From contig SVAZ01000014.1 in assembly GCA_015059145.1 (NCBI GenBank), positions 1-36,352 on the forward strand: a DNA stretch of 36,352 nucleotides, in the 5' to 3' direction. Shown here piece after piece: positions 102 to 20,705 of the stretch. The position numbers were made by a program, and so were the translations under genes. The stretch comes from Erysipelotrichaceae bacterium (GTDB lineage Bacteria > Bacillota_I > Bacilli_A > Acholeplasmatales > Anaeroplasmataceae). The number at the start of each line of letters is the position of its first letter. Positions within the stretch are counted from its first letter, which is position 1. Under the pieces are notes generated by a model, which had not been told where the DNA came from, did no database searches, and worked only from the letters and a program-made list of their open reading frames with translations.

Positions 102-1331
102 ATGGCGAATTTAGATTTTAAGTTTTTGAAGGAAAAATATGGTACACCACTTTATATTTATGATGTGAACCATTTAAAGAAAAACATGACAGGCTATTTA
201 GATTATTTTAAATCTAATGTATTTGAAACAGAGGTATTGTTTGCTTCTAAAGCATTTTGTGTTAAGGAAATGCTTAGATTGGTAAAGGCATATAATATGT
301 CATTAGATGTTGTTTCTATCGGAGAACTATATACTGCTATAGCAGTTGATTTTCCAATGGACAAAATCTATTTTCATGGTAATAATAAATCTATTTCAGA
401 TTTAGAATTTGCTTTAAATAATAATGTTGGAACTATTGTGGTTGATAATTTAATGGAGCTTGTTGCTTTAGATGAAATTACAAATAGATTAAATAAGAAG
501 TGTAATATTATCATTAGATTAAATCTTGGTGTTGAAGCACATACTCATAAGTTTATTGTTACAGCTCACGTTGATTCTAAATTTGGAGTTTCATATGGTT
601 CAAATGATTATAACGATATGCTTGATGTTTTAAAGAATTCAAAGAATATTAATTTTAAAGGCTTTCATTCTCATATTGGATCTCAAATTTTTGATTTAGA
701 TGCATTTACTGCAGCACTTGAAAAAATGCTTGGAATTTGTAAGAGCTTTGACAAGCCATTAGTATTAAATATTGGTGGTGGCTTTGGAGTTCATTATACA
801 GATGAGGATAAGCCTATTCCATTTGATGTTGTAAGTAAGACTTTAGTTGACACATGTGAAAAAGCATTAAAAGCTAATAATGTTAAGATTGAAAAGCTTT
901 GTATTGAACCAGGTAGAAGTATTGTTGCTGAGGCTGGCTATACATTATATACAATTGGTTTTACTAAGAAGACACCTAATAAGGAATATTATTTTATTGA
1001 TGGTGGTATGACTGATAATATTAGACCTGCCTTATATCAAGCAAAATACGATTGTGATATTGTTGGTAAGGAAAACGAATTAAAAAATCATATCGTTACT
1101 ATTGCAGGTAAGTGCTGTGAGAGTGGTGATTTAATTATTGAAAATCATCCATTACCAGAGGCTAAAAGCGGTGATTTATTAGTTACATATACTACAGGCG
1201 CTTATGGATATTCTATGAGCAGCAATTATAATAAGGCATTAACACCTGCCGTTGTTTTCGTTGAGGATGGTAAGGACAAGCTTGTTTGTAGAAGACAAAG
1301 CTATGATGAGCTTTTAGAAAGAGAAATCTAA
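102..1331 (+). CDS. lysA: Diaminopimelate decarboxylase
   Basis: PLP-dependent decarboxylation of meso-diaminopimelate to L-lysine in the cytoplasm, the last step of lysine synthesis. The 409-residue length is normal for LysA. The alanine-racemase-like barrel carries the PLP lysine in FASKAF (K50), the HSHIGSQ motif, and the phosphate-binding GGGFG loop. The C-terminal half has EPGRS, GKCCESGD with the substrate-side cysteine, and GAYGYSMSSNYN. All the usual catalytic residues are present. The ATG is well placed behind AGGAGG. The next gene begins one base after the stop codon, so the two are cotranscribed and probably translationally coupled. It heads a lysine/DAP operon, although in pathway order it is the final enzyme. 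Identification is secure; only its upstream regulation is unresolved. Confidence 0.96.
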   Translation: MANLDFKFLKEKYGTPLYIYDVNHLKKNMTGYLDYFKSNVFETEVLFASKAFCVKEMLRLVKAYNMSLDVVSIGELYTAIAVDFPMDKIYFHGNNKSISDLEFALNNNVGTIVVDNLMELVALDEITNRLNKKCNIIIRLNLGVEAHTHKFIVTAHVDSKFGVSYGSNDYNDMLDVLKNSKNINFKGFHSHIGSQIFDLDAFTAALEKMLGICKSFDKPLVLNIGGGFGVHYTDEDKPIPFDVVSKTLVDTCEKALKANNVKIEKLCIEPGRSIVAEAGYTLYTIGFTKKTPNKEYYFIDGGMTDNIRPALYQAKYDCDIVGKENELKNHIVTIAGKCCESGDLIIENHPLPEAKSGDLLVTYTTGAYGYSMSSNYNKALTPAVVFVEDGKDKLVCRRQSYDELLEREI

Positions 1332-1332
1332 T

Positions 1333-2148
1333 ATGCATATAGTTAAGATGCACGGCTGTGGCAATGATTATATAGTTGTAGAATATGAAGAGGGAATAAG
1401 CTACAGCAATCTTTCAAAAAAACTATGTGATAGAAGACTAGGTGTAGGTGCTGATGGATTGATTGTTGCTAAGCGAAATCCATTTGATATTGAGATTTAT
1501 GGTAGTGATGGTAGTGATATTCCAATGTCTACTAATGGCATTATATGCTATGCTAAGTACTGCTTAGATAAGGGGTATATTACTAAAAATAAAATTGATG
1601 TTATTACTGATATTGGGAAAATTAAGGTTCAAATTGAAAATGAGGATTCATTTATGGCCTCAATAAATATGGGAACACCTATATATAATAATCAATCATT
1701 ATTTATAAGTGATCCATTAGATTCTTTTGGTAGAATTTTAAATATTGGTGATTCAAATATAATTAGCTATTCAGTATTTTTAGGTACTGTACATACTGTA
1801 ATATTTGTTGATGATTTCGATTGTAATGCTTTAAGGCTAGCAAGTGAAATTTCTAATTATAGGATATTTAATAGAAAGACAAATGTTAATTTTGTGAAAA
1901 TTATAGATTGTAATAATATCGAGATTAGAACCTATGAAAGAGGTATTGGATGGGTTTTATCAAGTGGTAGTGGCTCATGTGCTGCAGCGGCTGTGGCAAA
2001 TGAATTAGAGCTTGTTGATATGAGGCTTATGGCTCATCAGGAATATGGCTCATATCAAATTGAAATAAATAGAAAGGGAGAAGTATATATTACCGGACCT
2101 TCTATAAAGGTTTTTGAATGTGATATTAAGGAGGAAGATTTATGTTAA
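1333..2148 (+). CDS. dapF: Diaminopimelate epimerase homologue lacking both catalytic cysteines
   Basis: By fold and neighbours this is DapF, which normally interconverts L,L- and meso-diaminopimelate using two cysteines as acid and base. The N-terminal MHGCGNDYI, GVGADGLI, TNVNFVKI and ERG motifs are kept, and 271 residues is a normal length. Both active-site loops have changed. The first reads MSTNGIICYAKY, where the family has MCGNG, giving Ser66 (codon 1528-1530). The second reads ERGIGWVLSSGSGS, where the family has ERGxGET.ACGTG, giving Ser211 (codon 1963-1965). The usual GNPH loop is GTVH, and the Asn before DGS is also replaced. The reading frame is intact and codon use matches the neighbours, so this is not a recent pseudogene. 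It may be a poor epimerase, a structural or regulatory partner, or an enzyme with another activity. The symbol reflects homology only. It overlaps dapA by 7 bases. Confidence 0.8.
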   Translation: MHIVKMHGCGNDYIVVEYEEGISYSNLSKKLCDRRLGVGADGLIVAKRNPFDIEIYGSDGSDIPMSTNGIICYAKYCLDKGYITKNKIDVITDIGKIKVQIENEDSFMASINMGTPIYNNQSLFISDPLDSFGRILNIGDSNIISYSVFLGTVHTVIFVDDFDCNALRLASEISNYRIFNRKTNVNFVKIIDCNNIEIRTYERGIGWVLSSGSGSCAAAAVANELELVDMRLMAHQEYGSYQIEINRKGEVYITGPSIKVFECDIKEEDLC

Positions 2149-3023
2149 AGGGAAGTATTGTTGCATTAGTTACACCATTTAATGAGGATGGTAGTGTAAA
2201 TTATGAAAAGCTAGGAGAATTATTAGAATTCCATATTTCTAATAAAACTGATGGAATTTGTATTTTAGGTACGACAGGAGAGGCTTCTACATTAAGCTTT
2301 GACGAAGAGGCTGAAATTGTAAGATTCAGTGTTCAAAAGGTTAATAAGAGAATACCATTAATTGTCGGCTCTGGATCTAATGAAACTGAAAAGGCTGTTA
2401 AGATGTCTAAGAAGTATTCTGAGCTTGGTGCTGATTATGTTTTAGTAATTACACCATATTATAATAAGACTAATGAAAGTGGCTTAATTAAGCACTTTGA
2501 AATGGTTGCTGAAGCATCTTTATGTCCAGTTATTATGTATAATGTTCCAGGTAGAACTGGTATGAGCATGTCTATTCATGCTATAGAGGTTTTATCAAAG
2601 AATCCAAATATTTGCGCTATTAAGGAAGCATCAGGTAATATGAGCTATTCAACAATGGTTGCAAAATATGTTAATGATGATTTTCAGATGTTCTCTGGTA
2701 ACGATGACATTATTGTTCCTATGATGTCAGTAGGTGCTACTGGTGTAATTTCTGTTTTAGCTAATATTGCTCCACAGCAAACTCATAATATGTGTGAGCT
2801 TTGCTTAAATGGGGATTATAAGGCTGCTAATAAAATTCAACAGGATTTATTAGATGTTGCTAATAATTTATTTTTAGAGGTAAACCCAATTCCTGTTAAG
2901 GAGGCGTTAAATCACTTAGGCTTTGGTGTTGGTGGATATAGAATGCCACTTGATTATATGGGCGACGCACCTAAGGCTAAAATGATTAAGGAGCTAGATT
3001 TAAAGAAGGAAGTGATTTTCTAA
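2142..3023 (+). CDS. dapA: 4-hydroxy-tetrahydrodipicolinate synthase
   Basis: Condenses pyruvate with aspartate semialdehyde, the committed step to diaminopimelate and lysine. The 293-residue TIM-barrel protein has GTTGEAS (43-49), the catalytic Tyr133 in MYNVPGRTG with Arg138, and the Schiff-base Lys161 in AIKEASG, all at the positions seen in E. coli DapA. The start lies inside the end of the preceding gene, behind the AAGGAGG of its last codons, and its stop overlaps the dapB start by one base. This tight packing indicates one operon. No unusual features. Confidence 0.96.
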   Translation: MLKGSIVALVTPFNEDGSVNYEKLGELLEFHISNKTDGICILGTTGEASTLSFDEEAEIVRFSVQKVNKRIPLIVGSGSNETEKAVKMSKKYSELGADYVLVITPYYNKTNESGLIKHFEMVAEASLCPVIMYNVPGRTGMSMSIHAIEVLSKNPNICAIKEASGNMSYSTMVAKYVNDDFQMFSGNDDIIVPMMSVGATGVISVLANIAPQQTHNMCELCLNGDYKAANKIQQDLLDVANNLFLEVNPIPVKEALNHLGFGVGGYRMPLDYMGDAPKAKMIKELDLKKEVIF

Positions 3024-3736
3024 TGAAGGCTGTAGTAGTAGGATATGGTGCAATGGGTAGAATCATAGCTAGTATGCTAAAGGATGACCTTCATTCCATA
3101 GTTGCAATAGAATGTGAAAATAAAAGCCTTAATGATGTTAAGGGTGATTTTGATGTTATTATAGATTTTTCAAATCCTGCTAATTTGGATATGATTTATG
3201 ACTATTGTAAAGCTAACAATAAGGCTGTTGTTTTTGCAACAACTGGATATACAGAAGCACAATTAGCTAAAATCAATGATTTAGCAAATTATGCTCCTGT
3301 ATTAAGAAGTGCTAATTTTTCTTTAGGTGTTATTTTATTAAATAAGTTAGTTAAGGAAATAACTCCTATTTTAAAGGATAGCTTCGATATCGAAATTATT
3401 GAGGCTCATCACCATCATAAGGTTGATGCACCTAGTGGTACAGCAAAAATGCTATTAAATTCAGTGGTTGAGGCAACCGGCTTTACTCCTGTATATGGTA
3501 GAGATGGCTATTCGCCTCGTAAGCCTGATGAAGTAGGTGTTCACGCTGTTAGAGGTGGCTCTATTGTAGGTGAGCATGATGTTATGTATTGTGGTGAGGA
3601 CGAAATCATTACCCTAAAGCATAGTGCCCATTCTAAGAAAATATTCGCTGTAGGTGCTATTAAGGCAGCAAGATGGCTTGAGGACAAATCTAATGGTTTT
3701 TATACTATGGAGGATGTTTTATTTCAAAATAAATAA
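3023..3736 (+). CDS. dapB: 4-hydroxy-tetrahydrodipicolinate reductase
   Basis: NAD(P)H-dependent reduction of the DapA product to tetrahydrodipicolinate. The N-terminal Rossmann motif is VVVGYGAMG. The substrate-binding signature EAHHHHKVDAPSGTA, with its catalytic His and Lys, is complete. A GRD-GYSPRKPDEVGVHAVRGG segment follows, as in other DapB proteins. At 237 residues it belongs to the shorter members (B. subtilis DapB is about 267). It is the last gene of the lysA operon, and its final codons form the left arm of an 18-bp inverted repeat that probably ends the transcript. The acylase/aminotransferase or dehydrogenase enzymes that follow DapB in the pathway are not in this window. Confidence 0.95.
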   Translation: MKAVVVGYGAMGRIIASMLKDDLHSIVAIECENKSLNDVKGDFDVIIDFSNPANLDMIYDYCKANNKAVVFATTGYTEAQLAKINDLANYAPVLRSANFSLGVILLNKLVKEITPILKDSFDIEIIEAHHHHKVDAPSGTAKMLLNSVVEATGFTPVYGRDGYSPRKPDEVGVHAVRGGSIVGEHDVMYCGEDEIITLKHSAHSKKIFAVGAIKAARWLEDKSNGFYTMEDVLFQNK

Positions 3737-3776
3737 TTATAGGGCTTTATGATTAGTCATAATTATTTATTTTGAA
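3723..3776 (+). terminator. Long AT-only hairpin at the end of dapB
   Basis: A perfect 18-bp inverted repeat (3723-3740 and 3759-3776) has an 18-nt loop and almost no G or C. Its left arm contains the dapB stop codon. The right arm is T-rich (TTATTTTG). It differs from the compact GC-containing hairpins used as terminators elsewhere in the window, so termination is likely but not certain. It could also stabilise the 3' end of the message. Confidence 0.55.
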
Positions 3777-3880
3777 TTTAATAATAATGAGGGTTTAGAG
3801 GTAAAAATAAACACTGATTTTTATTTGTCTGTCTATAACGGACAAAAATTAAAAATGTACAAGAAAAGTGCATTTTGTTA

Positions 3881-3909
3881 TTGAAATTTATAATTTTGTT
3901 GATTATAAT
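3881..3909 (+). promoter_or_regulatory. Sigma-A-type promoter of asd-lysC
   Basis: TTGAAA at 3881-3886 and TATAAT at 3904-3909 are separated by 17 bases, a near-consensus vegetative promoter. It lies 36 bases before the asd start, and the ribosome binding site GGGGG sits at about 3931-3935. The rest of the 3737-3944 gap is AT-rich. It holds a weak TTTGTC/GACAAA repeat (3824-3846) and no recognisable gene. Confidence 0.75.
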
Positions 3910-3944
3910 ATTTCATATTGCTAAATATTAGGGGGTAGTATTAT

Positions 3945-4955
3945 ATGAAGAAGTTTAATGTTGGTATATTAGGAGCAACTGGTGCAGTTGGTCGTGAAAT
4001 GTTAAATATTTTAGAGGAAAGAAAATTTCCAATTAATGAATTGAGATTATTAGCAAGCCCTAGAAGTGTTGGAACTAAGGTTCCTTTTAATGGTGAGGAT
4101 GTCGAAATCCAATTAGCTCAAAAGGGAGCTTTTGCTGGCTTAGATTTTGTATTAGGTGCAGCATCTAATGCTGTAGCAAAGGAGTTTGCAGATGATATAG
4201 TGGCTGCAGGTGCAGTATTTATTGATAATTCAAGTGCGTTTAGAATGAACGATGATGTTCCTCTAATTGTACCTGAAATTAATGGTGATGATGCATTTTT
4301 AAATAAGGGTATTATTTCAAATCCTAACTGCTCAACTATCATTACTTTAATGGCTGTAAATGCTATTAATAAATTATCTAAAATTAAAGCTATGAATGCT
4401 TGTACTTATCAAGCAACTTCAGGTGCTGGTGCTGCTGGTCCTGTTGAGCTTCGTAATCAAGCTAAGGCTTTACTTGATGGTGGGGAAATTAAGAATGAGG
4501 TATTCCAATATCAAATTGCTGAAAATCTTATTCCACAAATTGGTTCATTCTTAGATAATGGATATACAACAGAAGAAATGAAAATGCAAAATGAAGGTAG
4601 AAAGATTATGCATCTACCTGAGCTGTTAGTTAATTGTACATGTGTTAGAGTACCTGTTGTACGCTCTCACTCTATTGCGGTAACATTAGTTACTGAGGAT
4701 AAGCTTTCTATCGAAGAGGTTAGAAATGCAATCGCAAATGCTAAGGGCTGTAAGCTTTATGATGATGTTGATAATAAGGTTTATCCAATGCCTATTGTAA
4801 CTTCAGATCAGGATTTAGTATTTGTTGGTAGAATCCGCAAGGATTTAATAAATGAAAATGGTATTACACTTTGGTGTTGTGGAGATCAGGTTAGAAAAGG
4901 CGCAGCTACAAATGCAGTTCAAATTGCTATGAAGCTTGCTGGACTTGATTATTAG
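3945..4955 (+). CDS. asd: Aspartate-semialdehyde dehydrogenase
   Basis: Reduces aspartyl phosphate to aspartate semialdehyde, the branch-point precursor of lysine, DAP, threonine and methionine. The 336-residue protein has the NADP-binding GATGAVGREML at residues 10-20 and the catalytic Cys129 in NPNCSTI. The C-terminal half has VRVPVVRSHS with the conserved His, and a GAATNAVQIA tail, all typical of the family. It is first in a two-gene operon with lysC, 8 bases apart, which supplies substrate to DapA encoded just upstream. A separate promoter lets asd-lysC be expressed independently of lysA-dapB. Confidence 0.96.
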   Translation: MKKFNVGILGATGAVGREMLNILEERKFPINELRLLASPRSVGTKVPFNGEDVEIQLAQKGAFAGLDFVLGAASNAVAKEFADDIVAAGAVFIDNSSAFRMNDDVPLIVPEINGDDAFLNKGIISNPNCSTIITLMAVNAINKLSKIKAMNACTYQATSGAGAAGPVELRNQAKALLDGGEIKNEVFQYQIAENLIPQIGSFLDNGYTTEEMKMQNEGRKIMHLPELLVNCTCVRVPVVRSHSIAVTLVTEDKLSIEEVRNAIANAKGCKLYDDVDNKVYPMPIVTSDQDLVFVGRIRKDLINENGITLWCCGDQVRKGAATNAVQIAMKLAGLDY

Positions 4956-4963
4956 GAGGAATT

Positions 4964-6268
4964 ATGTTGGTAGTAACTAAATTTGGTGGTAGCTCACTTA
5001 GCTGTGCTACTCAATTTGAAAAGGTAAAGAATATAGTAACATCTGATCCTAAGCGTAAAATTGTAGTTGTTTCAGCTTTAGGAAAGAGAGATTCATCAGA
5101 CACTAAGATTACTGACCTATTATATATCCTACATGCTCATCTTAAGTATTCTGTTCCATATGAGGATATTTGGAATATGCTTTATACTCGTTTTGTTGGT
5201 GTACAAAAGGATTTAGGTATTAACTATGATATTACTAAGGATTTAGATGCTTTATATAAGGAGCTAAATAAAAATATATCTCAGGATTATCTAGTTTCTC
5301 GTGGTGAATATTTAACTGCTAAGCTTATGAGCAGCTATTTAGGATATACATTCGTTGATGCTAAGGATTTATTAGTATTTAACTATGATGCAAAAATGGA
5401 CGAGGGAACTACTGAAAAGAATGTTAAGAATGCTTTTGCTAAGTACGGCACTATTGTTGTTCCTGGTTTTTATGGAGCATTCCCTAATGGCTCAATTAAG
5501 CTTTTATCTAGAGGAGGCTCTGATGTAACAGGCTCTATTCTATCTAAGTGCTTAAATGTTTCATTATACGAGAATTGGACAGACGTTTCTGGAATTCTAG
5601 CTGCTGACCCTCGCATTATTGATAAACCACGTGCTATTAAGGAAATCACTTATGCTGAGCTAAGGGAGCTTTCTTATATGGGTGCTTCAGTATTACATGA
5701 GGAAACTGTATTCCCTGTTCAACAGTTAAACATTCCTATTAATTTAAAGAATACTAATGAGCCATCTCATCCTGGTACTTTAATTAAGAATGTTTGTACA
5801 GATGAATCTAACATTGTAACAGGTCTTGCTGGAAAGAAGGATTTCTTATCATTCAATATTTCTAAGGATCACATGTCTAATGAAATAGGCTTCCTACGTA
5901 GAGCATTATCTATATTTGAAAAGTATAATGTATCTATTGAGCATATTCCATCTGGAATTGATTCATTTAGTGTTGTTGTCGCTGGTTCATCAGTTGAGAA
6001 ATGTCAATATGAGCTTGTTACTGAATTGCGCAAGGAATTAGAGGCTAATGTAACTGTAGAAAAGGATATCGCTTTAGTAGCTGTAGTTGGTAGAAACATG
6101 GCTAAGCGTAGTGGTATTTGTGGAACTATATTCCAAACATTAGGTCAAGAAAAAATAAATGTAAAGCTATTGGCTCAAGGTCCTGAGGAGCTAAATATCA
6201 TTATTGGTGTTGCTTCTAAGGATTATGAAACTACTCTAAAGGCTTTATATCAAAATTTAGTAGCTTAA
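4964..6268 (+). CDS. lysC: Aspartate kinase, monofunctional with C-terminal ACT domains
   Basis: Phosphorylates aspartate, the entry step of the aspartate-family pathway. The 434-residue protein opens with VTKFGGSSLS (catalytic Lys6). SRGEYLTAKLM and SRGGSDVTGSIL form the aspartate and ATP sites of the amino-acid kinase fold. From about residue 285 two ACT-like segments follow, which in this family bind an end-product amino acid for feedback control. No homoserine dehydrogenase domain is present. It follows asd behind AGGAGG and ends just before a strong terminator. Which amino acid inhibits it cannot be read from the sequence. Confidence 0.94.
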   Translation: MLVVTKFGGSSLSCATQFEKVKNIVTSDPKRKIVVVSALGKRDSSDTKITDLLYILHAHLKYSVPYEDIWNMLYTRFVGVQKDLGINYDITKDLDALYKELNKNISQDYLVSRGEYLTAKLMSSYLGYTFVDAKDLLVFNYDAKMDEGTTEKNVKNAFAKYGTIVVPGFYGAFPNGSIKLLSRGGSDVTGSILSKCLNVSLYENWTDVSGILAADPRIIDKPRAIKEITYAELRELSYMGASVLHEETVFPVQQLNIPINLKNTNEPSHPGTLIKNVCTDESNIVTGLAGKKDFLSFNISKDHMSNEIGFLRRALSIFEKYNVSIEHIPSGIDSFSVVVAGSSVEKCQYELVTELRKELEANVTVEKDIALVAVVGRNMAKRSGICGTIFQTLGQEKINVKLLAQGPEELNIIIGVASKDYETTLKALYQNLVA

Positions 6269-15903: not shown

Positions 15904-17016
15904 ATGTATAAAATAATAATGAATAAGGCAGACTTTTTTAAGATTCATAATAGGATAGCGACTAAGAATATTGAAATTATTAAGGAAGAGGTTAAATTCG
16001 AAGTTAATCATGATGCACTAAGGACCTTAAAAAATATAGGATATCCATATGTTTTAGTAGATTCATTCAAAATAAAATCAAAGCTTTTTTTAAAGAAGTA
16101 CTATATGGTTTTAATAGGGTTTGTGTTTTTGTTTAGTCTAATTTATATAAATAATTATCGTGTATCAAAAATAATATTTAATACAGACACTCCTATTAAT
16201 GCAGAAATTGAGGATAGGATTAATTCAAGTATTAAGGATTTGTTTTGGTTTAGCTTTTCTAATGAAGATTATACAAAGCTCTCTAAGGAGCTTAGGGTTC
16301 AATATTCCGAATATCCATATATAGAGGTTTATTCTAAAAATAATAAAATTTATGTAGATATATATACCTATCATGATGAATATCCAGAGCTAGAGGATGA
16401 TCAAGGGTATGGAAGTATAGTTTCAAAGAAGGATGCTGTAATAGATTATTTCTATATTCATAAAGGGAATTCCTTAATATCTAAAAATAAATATGTGAAG
16501 AAGGGTGATGTATTAGTAGATGGATATATTAATGGAAGCTATATAGGTGCAAAGGGTCTTGTTATGGGATATACCTATGAGAGTATAGATATAGTAGTAA
16601 ATAAGGTAGATGAATTTGAGATAGAAACAATGAATGTTGATAGCTATACTGAAATTAATTTTTTTGGTAATAAATTTAATTTTGGAAAGGATAATGAATT
16701 TAGCATATCAGAGATTTCTAAGGATAATGTATTCAATCTTTTTGATGTCTTTAGTATCAAAAAAATTGAAGAAGTAGAAAAAAATGTTATAATAGAAGAA
16801 AATAGCCTTGAAGCTGCGATTGAAAAGGGTAAGAAAGTAATTACTGAAAATTTCAATAAAAATAAAACTTCAAGTGAAGAGGAAATGATTGACCTATATT
16901 ATTATAGATATAGTGAGAGTGAGGATTCATATACAATCACTTATATCGCAAAGAAGCTAGAGTCGATTGGTATATTTAAGGAGAGTAGTATAGATGAAGC
17001 TGAACTTACAAATTGA
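15904..17016 (+). CDS. yqfD: Sporulation membrane protein YqfD
   Basis: A 370-residue protein of the YqfD (stage IV sporulation) family, needed for efficient endospore formation in B. subtilis. A cytoplasmic N-terminal region of about 80 residues is followed by one membrane helix at about 84-104 (YYMVLIGFVFLFSLIYI). The large extracytoplasmic domain contains the family segment GSIVSKKDAVIDY to VKKGDVLVDG (about 175-215) and a charged C-terminus. It begins one base after yqfC, behind GGAGAG, and overlaps phoH by 23 bases. That order matches the Bacillus and Clostridium cluster. Its presence suggests a spore-forming ancestry, though actual sporulation cannot be concluded from this window. Confidence 0.85.
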   Translation: MYKIIMNKADFFKIHNRIATKNIEIIKEEVKFEVNHDALRTLKNIGYPYVLVDSFKIKSKLFLKKYYMVLIGFVFLFSLIYINNYRVSKIIFNTDTPINAEIEDRINSSIKDLFWFSFSNEDYTKLSKELRVQYSEYPYIEVYSKNNKIYVDIYTYHDEYPELEDDQGYGSIVSKKDAVIDYFYIHKGNSLISKNKYVKKGDVLVDGYINGSYIGAKGLVMGYTYESIDIVVNKVDEFEIETMNVDSYTEINFFGNKFNFGKDNEFSISEISKDNVFNLFDVFSIKKIEEVEKNVIIEENSLEAAIEKGKKVITENFNKNKTSSEEEMIDLYYYRYSESEDSYTITYIAKKLESIGIFKESSIDEAELTN

Positions 17017-18110: not shown

Positions 18111-20705
18111 ATGAAAAAGAATTTTATTGGTAATTTTATAAAGTCTTTTGGAATAATACAATGCTTTTTTGTTACTTTAGTAATTGTATTATTGCACTTT
18201 GTTTCACGCAATACTGATTCTATGATTATTGGTACAGGCGGAAAGATTATCACTGATATCTTACGTGGTACTGTATATCTAGGTGTTATTGGCTTTGCGG
18301 TGATGGGTATTTCAGGTTTGAAGGAGGTTAGAATCAACAAGCTAGATTTAATTAGAGTTGTTGGTCTATTTGCTTCAATAATTTTACTTGTCTATACATT
18401 AGTTGATCAAGGATTTTCATTAACTAATTTATTGATTTATACTTTATGCATTATTGCGTTTATTGTTGAGCTTGTATTTAGATTTTTACACTGCAAGGGT
18501 AGAGGTAAATCTTTTGGTTATAAGGCTTATGTAAATGCGATTGGCAATAAGTTTAACCCTTTATATTTATGCTTAATTGGTTTAGCTTTATCTTTCGTAT
18601 ATATTTATGTGGGTGATTATAATTCTGGATTATGTAAGGTTATAATCGATAATTTCTGGATTTTATTATGTGGTTCTTTTGTTGCGATATTAATATTACA
18701 GGTATTATTCTCAAATGAAAGTGTTACATTTATAGATGCTATTGCTGTAATTGTATCTGTTGGATTCGCTAGTATAGCAATTCATGGTTCAATTATGAAT
18801 GCATTCCCAGCTGAGGAAACTGTTTTTGCAGCAATCTTTATTGCAATGTCTTTATATTTAAGAGCAGTTTCATTTAGTGGTGTTGAACAAGAGCAATCAA
18901 AATATAAATTAAATAATTATTATGCAAACGTATATAAAAAGTATGATGCTGTATTACCAATAGTAGTTGCATTTATTACATGCGCTATATTCACTTTATT
19001 TAGTGTATTTAATAATCCTGTATTAAATATTAATATTTCTCAATTAGCTGCATCAATTATTGCACTTGCAGTTTTATCGCTTGTATTAATTCTAGCTTGT
19101 TCATTCGTTTATAAAATTAAATCTTCTGAGATTACTATATTTGATTTCTTATTAAGATTTATGACATATTTTGCTTTATTCTCAATTCCTTATATTGTTT
19201 ATGCATTTATAAATGTTAAAACATTAGGAAATGATGCTTTAGTTTTAGTTGTTACTATTTTAATGATTTTAAATTTAATAGCTGCAATAGCGTTTCAGGT
19301 TGTAAGAGCTATTTTCTATGCTCCAATTCAATACGAGATTTCAAAAGAGTTTGATGAGGCTGCATTTGAGGAAGCGTTAAATTCAATTCCAGAAGGGCAA
19401 GAAGCACCAGCTGAAGAGATTGTATGTGTTGACGAGGAAGGTAATGTTATTGAAAATCCAAATCAGCAAGCACCAGCTGAAGAGGTTGTATATGTTGACG
19501 AGGAAGGTAATGTCGTTGAAGCACCAGCTGAAGAGGTTGTATATGTTGATGAGGATGGTAATATTGTTGAAGCACCTGAGGAAGATGTTGTTTACGTAGA
19601 CGAGGAAGTGGCTGCTGTTGAAAAAGAAGCAAGTGAATCTGAAAATGATACTATTGTTTATGTAGATGAGCAAGGTAATGTTATCGAAGAAGTAGATAAT
19701 ATTCAGTCTACTGAGGAAGTGATTTATGTTGATGAGGATGGTAATGCCGTTGATAATGCTGTAGAAACTGTTAATTCTGAAGATGAAGATGAAGAAGATG
19801 AAGAAGATGATGATGAGTCTGAATACTATGAGGATGAAGAGTACGTTGAGGTTTCACATGCAAAGGAAAGAAATGTCTTAATGCCTGAGGTTAGTATTAT
19901 TGACGAAAATGGTGAGCCTAAGAAAATTAAACGTAAATTTAATACTCGTATGATGTTTGCTCCTTATGAGGCAAAGGAATATTATAATGATATTAAGAAT
20001 TATTTAGTTATGTATCGAGCTACTAGTAGATATTCTGCTAGATGTGAAACATTTAGATATAAGGGATTGGTTGCTAAGGTTGCTTTAGCTGGTAAATCTA
20101 TTAAGGTATGCTTAGCTATTGATCCAACTTCATTAGAGGGAACTAAATACAATTTCAAGGATGTTTCTAATAAGAAGCAATATGAAGAGGTTCCTACAAT
20201 GATTAAGGTACGTTCTCCTAGAGGCTTAAAATACTTTAAGGAGCTAGTTGATATTATGATGGCTACTCGAGGTGTAAATCCTAAGAGAAATTATCAGCCT
20301 ACTAATTATTTACCTTATTTAATTCCAAATGGTGAAGCTATTTTAGCTACAATTGGTATGAGTACAGATTACCTATATTCTTCAATGAATGTTAGAGGTA
20401 TTCCTGCTGAATTACCTGATGATTTAATTGAGTACCTACCAGTAATTCAAGCTGAAGAGTTAGATGAAGAAGAGGTAGAGGCTACAATTTATTTAGATAC
20501 ATTATGCAATCACTTCATTGATGGTGATGAAATTACAATTGATGTATTAAAGGAATTACATATTATAAGTAAGGGTAATGTTTTAAGAATCAAGGCAAGA
20601 GGTACATTAGATCGTAAGCTGATTATTTATGCAGAATATTTTGATGATGATGCAATTAAAATGCTAATGTGTACTAATTGTACTGTTGTTAAGATAATTA
20701 GATAA
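18111..20705 (+). CDS. Large membrane protein with acidic repeats and a ribosomal-L15-like C-terminal domain
   Basis: An 864-residue protein of unknown role with four parts. About twelve membrane helices span residues 14-400. An acidic linker (about 433-555) holds six imperfect copies of a unit close to EEVVYVDEEGNVVE, followed by a run of Asp and Glu to about 580. A basic-to-mixed domain (about 605-720) contains APYEAKEYYNDIKNYL, then SARCETFRYKGLVAKVAL and CLAIDPTSLEGTKY. That pattern recurs in uncharacterised Bacillota proteins. The last 70 residues (ITIDVLKELHIISKGNVLRI, then KARGTLDRKLIIYAEYF, DDDAIKMLM, TVVKII) follow the layout of the C-terminal half of ribosomal protein uL15. It is a single-gene unit with promoter and terminator. 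The soluble part is probably cytoplasmic, anchored to the membrane through the flexible linker. A link to ribosomes or RNA at the membrane is inference only. Confidence 0.8.
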   Translation: MKKNFIGNFIKSFGIIQCFFVTLVIVLLHFVSRNTDSMIIGTGGKIITDILRGTVYLGVIGFAVMGISGLKEVRINKLDLIRVVGLFASIILLVYTLVDQGFSLTNLLIYTLCIIAFIVELVFRFLHCKGRGKSFGYKAYVNAIGNKFNPLYLCLIGLALSFVYIYVGDYNSGLCKVIIDNFWILLCGSFVAILILQVLFSNESVTFIDAIAVIVSVGFASIAIHGSIMNAFPAEETVFAAIFIAMSLYLRAVSFSGVEQEQSKYKLNNYYANVYKKYDAVLPIVVAFITCAIFTLFSVFNNPVLNINISQLAASIIALAVLSLVLILACSFVYKIKSSEITIFDFLLRFMTYFALFSIPYIVYAFINVKTLGNDALVLVVTILMILNLIAAIAFQVVRAIFYAPIQYEISKEFDEAAFEEALNSIPEGQEAPAEEIVCVDEEGNVIENPNQQAPAEEVVYVDEEGNVVEAPAEEVVYVDEDGNIVEAPEEDVVYVDEEVAAVEKEASESENDTIVYVDEQGNVIEEVDNIQSTEEVIYVDEDGNAVDNAVETVNSEDEDEEDEEDDDESEYYEDEEYVEVSHAKERNVLMPEVSIIDENGEPKKIKRKFNTRMMFAPYEAKEYYNDIKNYLVMYRATSRYSARCETFRYKGLVAKVALAGKSIKVCLAIDPTSLEGTKYNFKDVSNKKQYEEVPTMIKVRSPRGLKYFKELVDIMMATRGVNPKRNYQPTNYLPYLIPNGEAILATIGMSTDYLYSSMNVRGIPAELPDDLIEYLPVIQAEELDEEEVEATIYLDTLCNHFIDGDEITIDVLKELHIISKGNVLRIKARGTLDRKLIIYAEYFDDDAIKMLMCTNCTVVKIIR
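19411..19763 (+). repeat. Imperfect 42-45-bp coding repeats in the acidic linker
   Basis: Six imperfect copies encode units such as EEIVCVDEEGNVIE, EEVVYVDEEGNVVE, EEVVYVDEDGNIVE, EDVVYVDEEVAAVE, DTIVYVDEQGNVIE and EEVIYVDEDGNAVD. The first three are nearly identical in DNA and closely spaced; the later copies have drifted. This is consistent with expansion by slippage. Confidence 0.9.

Follow-up and report, generated by a model that had tools for sequence, protein, structure and literature searches.

Two catalytic cysteines are a textbook feature of DapF, which is a drug target in many bacteria. What, then, is the role of a DapF homologue that has neither cysteine and is encoded within a lysine operon? 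The protein that raises this question, P0001 (271 aa), is the product of an exact open reading frame in the window, by which we mean the whole 36,352-nucleotide stretch analysed (contig SVAZ01000014.1, assembly GCA_015059145.1). The genome, G000 in our survey, comes from a gut bacterium akin to Anaeroplasma and is 1.43 Mb and 94.4% complete. A sequence-only reading had placed the gene, with its frame open, in a lysine/DAP operon, and profile scores bear this out. The order is lysA-dapF-dapA-dapB-asd-lysC, with dapF beginning one base past the lysA stop and its 3' end overlapping the start of dapA:

102..1331, forward strand: lysA, diaminopimelate decarboxylase (TIGR01048, 421.3 bits, cut-off 297.9).
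1333..2148, forward strand: dapF homologue encoding P0001, both catalytic cysteines gone (TIGR00652; AlphaFold2; best PDB match 4ijz_A).
1501..1503, forward strand: codon for Gly57, at the site of E. coli Asn64 (phmmer alignment).
1528..1530, forward strand: TCT codon for Ser66, at the site of catalytic Cys73 (alignment); a predicted helix, 67-79, begins one residue on.
1963..1965, forward strand: AGT codon for Ser211, at the site of catalytic Cys217 (alignment); a predicted helix, 212-224, begins one residue on.
2142..3023, forward strand: dapA, its start overlapping the dapF end (TIGR00674, 320.7 bits).
3023..3736, forward strand: dapB (TIGR00036, 200.6 bits).
3737..3944, forward strand: gap between dapB and asd without dapH; the slot of dapH in the Cys/Cys relatives G013, G026, G002 and G021.
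3945..4955, forward strand: asd, aspartate-semialdehyde dehydrogenase (TIGR01296, 394.5 bits).
4964..6268, forward strand: lysC, aspartate kinase (NF006540, 500 bits).

No lysine riboswitch, nor any other Rfam family, was found in the window at gathering score. Further along, positions 15904-17016 encode a YqfD stage IV sporulation family protein (PF06898, 90.3 bits), here in a relative of the wall-less Mollicutes; sporulation genes in Anaeroplasmataceae are on record in the accessible part of an earlier report (PMC10868615). The 864-aa open reading frame at 18111-20705 has no Pfam match at E 1e-10.

P0001 is recognisably a DapF. It scores 186.4 bits on the NCBIfam DapF profile (TIGR00652), above the cut-off of 114.65, and its AlphaFold2 model, made with 38 aligned sequences, is a confident DapF fold of two similar domains (mean pLDDT 94.6). 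The best match among solved structures is E. coli DapF (4ijz_A, E 2.5e-30, TM-score 0.87), and the top ten include C73S and C217S mutants of H. influenzae DapF and the RppH-DapF complex. Its motifs read GCGNDY, YGSDGS, MSTNG, GTVH, YERGIGWV and SSGSG, and a phmmer alignment to 4ijz puts Ser66 and Ser211 at Cys73 and Cys217 of the E. coli enzyme, exactly as had been read from the letters. The accompanying claim of a linked set of active-site changes holds in part. Gly57, in place of Asn64 (a residue that we take to bind substrate in E. coli DapF), and the V of GWV depart from the norm of the lineage, as do Ser66, Thr67 and Ser211, but GTVH and the W are themselves the norm: Cys/Cys copies in the family have GTIH or GTVH, and mostly GWT. 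Thr152, at the place of E. coli Asn157, is also Thr in Cys/Cys relatives, and Asn11, His154, Asn184, Glu202 and Arg203 are kept.

A survey of 55 family genomes, 27 of them in the window's genus, sets these substitutions in context. Two kinds of DapF occur, which we label DapF2, encoded in the lysine operon, and DapF1, a second and canonical Cys/Cys protein. DapF2 is present in 19 of the 27 genus genomes, with a further fragment of 30 residues in G020, where the contig ends; it is Cys/Cys in 4 of the 19 (G002, G013, G021 and G026) and lacks both cysteines in 15. DapF1 is found in 10 of the 27, seven of which have both kinds in full. G000 has DapF2 only, a PF01678 search of this 94.4% complete genome having found no second DapF. 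Sequencing error, which had been argued against from the letters, is excluded by the recurrence of the change in 15 other genomes; Cys73 is missing from all 16 scorable copies without dapH, and since one serine codon is TCT and the other AGT, a single repeated error is not the explanation. Sister strains with both cysteines, which had been offered as a sign of sequencing error or recent decay, do exist (G002, G013 and G026); recurrence disposes of the first of these, whilst the window's own copy may indeed have begun to decay recently.

The state of the cysteines follows dapH, the gene of the acetylase route to L,L-DAP. Within the genus, dapH is over cut-off in exactly the four genomes with a Cys/Cys DapF2, where it lies between dapB and asd; G000 has none over cut-off (TIGR03532, best 30.9 bits against 231.75). 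Across the family, dapH is over cut-off in 18 of 55 genomes, and the dapF beside it encodes both cysteines in 17 of these, the eighteenth (G043) being a fragment in which one is visible. The dapF of G054 adjoins dapH, with lysA outside the view. Conversely, scorable lysine-operon copies without dapH lack Cys73 in 16 of 16 cases and both cysteines in 15 of 16. The single intermediate, in G051 (L277:5512-6327), reads MSGDG and SCGTA, so that only Cys73 is lost, and this genome is the sole member of its genus without dapH. An M20 amidohydrolase gene follows lysC in 13 of the 18 dapH genomes and at none of the 12 non-Cys loci with lysC in view, and the window gave no match to it; it plausibly encodes the acetyl-DAP deacetylase.

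It is dapH, and not the meso-DAP dehydrogenase gene ddh, that separates Cys from non-Cys genomes. As a separating factor ddh was considered and rejected, being equally common in the two groups (13/16 non-Cys genomes, G011, G015 and G023 being those in which it was not found, and 13/18 dapH genomes); thus it allows the loss of the cysteines but does not mark it. In G000, ddh scores 433.9 bits on TIGR01921 (cut-off 180.6). The proposal that the organism may make meso-DAP by another route is therefore borne out as far as gene content goes, with ddh present and no dapH over cut-off; nor is there a DapL over the TIGR03540 cut-off, although an aminotransferase below it might supply L,L-DAP. Because ddh can make meso-DAP straight from tetrahydrodipicolinate, DapF in G000 would have lost its substrate.

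MurE is over cut-off in 6 of the 27 genus genomes, with two copies each in G000, G010, G013 and G026; mur genes in some Anaeroplasmataceae are already in print in the accessible part of PMC10868615. The G000 copies (G000:C2:24066-25421, L182:6004-7431; G000:C15:6441-7799, L183:6402-7817) both score best on the DAP-ligase model (439.9 and 398.8 bits, cut-off 373). A search of the two sequences for a D[ND]P motif gave nothing; read by eye, the usual place of DNPR is occupied by DNSRFE in one and by EDPKNE in the second. A lysine-adding MurE in G000 was rejected on the profile scores, the second copy, with EDPKNE, being only a possible DAP ligase.

In 10 genus genomes (L172-L181, for example L176:944-7842) the DapF1 gene belongs to a nitrogen cluster that also includes gltD, glnA, an ANTAR gene and, as a rule, pyrG, the visible extent of the cluster varying with the contig ends. 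A DapL-like gene follows in 9 of 10, the tenth being cut by a contig end, and the one DapL-like protein of the cluster that was scanned scores 483 bits on TIGR03542 (cut-off 364.7). In eight further genomes the DapL-like gene adjoins pyrG without dapF. Four genomes (G001, G015, G018 and G022) combine a DapL-like gene with a non-Cys DapF as their sole DapF, DapF1 being absent; in G003, G012, G014 and G024 the DapL-like gene is present and no DapF was found. Both groups, like the three genomes in which ddh was not found, tell against a simple account of the meso-DAP supply. Downstream of the DapL-like gene and pyrG, G001 (Anaeroplasma bactoclasticum) also encodes a second LysA-like decarboxylase (G001:C1:132658-133884, L257; L267:10659-11915) that reaches 288.6 bits against the lysA cut-off of 297.9, and similar copies occur in G022, G014, G012, G015, G003 and G024.

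The residues that replace the cysteines suggest what kind of change this was. In the 15 copies without either cysteine, site 73 is N in six, S in five and D in four, and site 217 is S in eleven, T in two and N in two. S, N, D and T are favoured helix N-caps, and in the P0001 model a helix begins one residue past each serine. Cysteine gave way only to these four residues, and both sites directly precede a predicted helix, so that a structural substitution is more likely than catalysis by serine. The same variation makes conserved serine chemistry, which the sequence-only reading had allowed for, unlikely, and the Ser/Ser proteins do not form a clade. At substrate-pocket positions the ancestral residue survives in 0.39 of cells, against 0.69 at other conserved positions, where the pocket list is our own choice from motifs and recall and the Fisher p of 0.00015 ignores kinship and is not used as evidence. 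Five positions have become newly conserved in the non-Cys copies, none of them on the pocket list. Arg34, which aligns with E. coli Arg36, is kept in 15 of 15 non-Cys copies; in the available part of PMC7144940, mutation of E. coli DapF Arg36 together with Tyr268 is described as disrupting the dimer.

These patterns bear on two catalytic explanations. A serine-based or residual epimerase might still turn over L,L-DAP slowly, fed by a PRK07681- or DapL-type aminotransferase. The five motif residues kept in G000 (Asn11, His154, Asn184, Glu202 and Arg203) would suit this, and an aminotransferase scoring 338-362 bits on TIGR03540 (cut-off 593.25) occurs in 8 of the 27 genus genomes, among them the Ser/Ser genomes G000, G001, G015 and G022, as well as G010 and G024; the G000 protein is nearest PRK07681 (414.6 bits, below the cut-off of 545). 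However, sister copies have N, D or T at the cysteine sites, Asn64 has become Gly in G000, the same class of aminotransferase is found in G024, which has no DapF that we could find, and ddh offers a direct route. In addition, the related racemase HisR loses most of its turnover when one cysteine is changed to serine, according to the accessible part of PMC11602996, and a fully active Ser/Ser form is therefore unlikely. We regard a residual epimerase as improbable. New catalysis by a cysteine-free DapF fold is given as little weight: PhzF, which presumably works without this cysteine pair, is among the structural matches, so that the fold can do without it, but the five newly conserved positions are all off the pocket list, no new active-site set common to the non-Cys copies is seen, and P0001 has no Pfam PhzF match.

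The cysteines have probably been lost more than once. On the rpoB tree G000 falls in one clade with the Cys/Cys genomes G002, G013 and G026 (support 100/99), and a single clade of all non-Cys genomes is rejected (AU test, 14 rows against 4, p-AU 0.00028). The operon tree, from which G027, G043 and G054 were left out because operon genes are missing, groups G000 as well as G010 with these three Cys/Cys genomes (100/99). Counting only well supported branches, this tree yields three independent pairs that are unlike in dapH/Cys state; the best operon tree as it stands yields five. None of the 31 rows used shows discordance between dapH and Cys state, so one label served for both traits in this count; concordance within operon-tree pairs is thus set by the coding, and the informative quantity is the number of independent pairs. 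A sign test on three pairs gives p 0.25, significance being out of reach with so few. At least three independent comparisons agree on the tie between dapH and the cysteines. The DapF gene tree, in contrast to the rpoB and operon trees, groups the non-Cys copies as one clade (75/93), which allows a single loss; its long branches can produce false grouping, and we rely on it less for that reason.

In three clades the non-Cys genes are not simply drifting. All 16 frames are open through the stretch seen (that of G022 in two contig pieces), and the one TAA in each of the G010 and G018 matches falls at the C-terminal end in the alignment. In seven pairs in which both members lack cysteines, NG86 dN/dS for DapF2 is 0.166, 0.188, 0.191, 0.166, 0.176, 0.263 and 0.177, against 0.08-0.14 for LysA and DapA in those pairs and 0.18-0.26 for DapF2 in the three computable Cys/Cys pairs. 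Codon models reject dN/dS = 1 in three non-Cys clades (2dlnL 271, 345 and 259), although the fitted values, like the 0.008-0.053 that the IQ-TREE codon runs gave for all genes, are unreliable in size because synonymous sites are saturated. The earlier suggestion that the gene is under some selection is thus clearly right for the sister non-Cys clades; on the window's own branch the signal is weak (2dlnL 6.8 for rejection of dN/dS = 1), and G000 DapF gives 0.51 against G010 (LysA 0.22) and 0.30 against G013 (LysA 0.13). Selective retention is therefore well supported in three sister clades and weakly so in G000, where the copy may be decaying. In amino acid identity, non-Cys DapF changes faster than its operon neighbours (for G006-G017, DapF 77% against LysA 91%), whereas Cys/Cys DapF is about as conserved as LysA or a little less so (65% against 74% for G013-G002; 69% against 67% for G013-G021).

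Could P0001 then be a decaying relic, functionless since L,L-DAP ceased to be made, whose frame is still open here because the loss is recent or because the gene lies between overlapping neighbours? The ratio of 0.51 for G000-G010 and the weak rejection on the G000 branch would fit, as would the five genomes in which lysA is followed directly by dapA (G004, G005, G012, G014 and G024), which show that dapF is dispensable in some. The same clean deletions, however, indicate that no spacer is required at this place, and neither 16 open frames out of 16 nor strong purifying selection in three non-Cys clades is expected of a relic. We consider this explanation unlikely, though it deserves more weight than either catalytic one.

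The reading that we prefer, and hold to be somewhat probable, is that P0001 has the DapF fold but is a pseudoenzyme, left with no reaction to catalyse once L,L-DAP was no longer made and retained since then for a non-catalytic role. One mark of a pseudoenzyme, a known enzyme fold from which the catalytic residues are gone, is plain to see; another, purifying selection after the loss, is clear in the sister clades and weak on the G000 branch; and a non-catalytic function has a precedent in E. coli DapF. The ancestral operon would have made L,L-DAP by the acetylase route, through DapH and then probably the M20 deacetylase, and a Cys/Cys DapF would have converted it to meso-DAP. Loss of dapH in several lineages, the window's included, would have left DapF without a substrate, after which residues able to cap the adjoining helices may have taken the place of the two thiols, each of which lies at a helix start. 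Both the fold and the E. coli dimerisation residue would have been kept whilst substrate-pocket residues were lost preferentially. We infer from this that epimerase activity has gone and that it went after dapH; the role that remained would most likely be that of a binding partner or regulator, possibly of some enzyme of the lysine operon. Against this reading stand the weak constraint on the G000 branch, the five genomes with no dapF between lysA and dapA, the four relatives that pair a DapL-like gene with a non-Cys DapF alone, and the unassigned aminotransferase of G000, a putative source of L,L-DAP.

We propose more tentatively, as a possibility somewhat short of probable, that DapF has become, repeatedly and independently in Anaeroplasma and its relatives, a selectively maintained, non-catalytic, protein-binding member of the lysine operon, each time after the loss of dapH. 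If so, the non-catalytic role would be an old second function of DapF that outlived its chemistry, as the E. coli RppH link hints. To our knowledge, a non-catalytic role for DapF is so far known only from E. coli RppH. The natural series from Cys/Cys through one cysteine to none goes with the loss of a single upstream gene; it sets the chemistry apart from any other role that DapF has, and makes a general non-catalytic role testable in bacteria that already lack the chemistry. A practical consequence is that an automatic DapF annotation, such as P0001 would receive, is no proof that the genome is capable of DAP epimerisation. A literature search at title level, with subscription journals mostly outside it, gave no title on a natural DapF without its cysteines.

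Several known systems resemble P0001 in part. Members of the DapF family proper (TIGR00652, PF01678) share its fold, length and operon context, and its score is above their cut-off, but in P0001 both catalytic cysteines and Asn64 are replaced, and G000 has no dapH to supply L,L-DAP. The PhzF family has a related fold, but P0001 has no PF02567 match at E 0.001. The bifunctional DapF/glutamate racemase of Chlamydia is likewise a member of the DapF family with an extra function, although a catalytic one, and P0001 scores only 52.3 bits on its profile (NF038284, cut-off 350). HisR and CntK, as described in the accessible part of PMC11602996, are DapF-fold proteins with a changed job in a DAP-poor context, and their Cys to Ser mutants keep the fold; in contrast to P0001, which has neither cysteine, they keep and need both. 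The closest parallel may be the partnership of E. coli DapF with RppH, an RNA pyrophosphohydrolase. In the available part of PMC4227774, DapF(C73&217A) is inactive as an epimerase, yet it binds and stimulates RppH, so that a DapF without its chemistry can have a function. There, as in the role suggested here, a DapF fold without catalytic cysteines serves as a protein partner, and Arg36 of E. coli DapF corresponds to Arg34 of P0001; by analogy, P0001 might have a role of the RppH type. The difference is that the cysteine-free form in E. coli is an engineered mutant.
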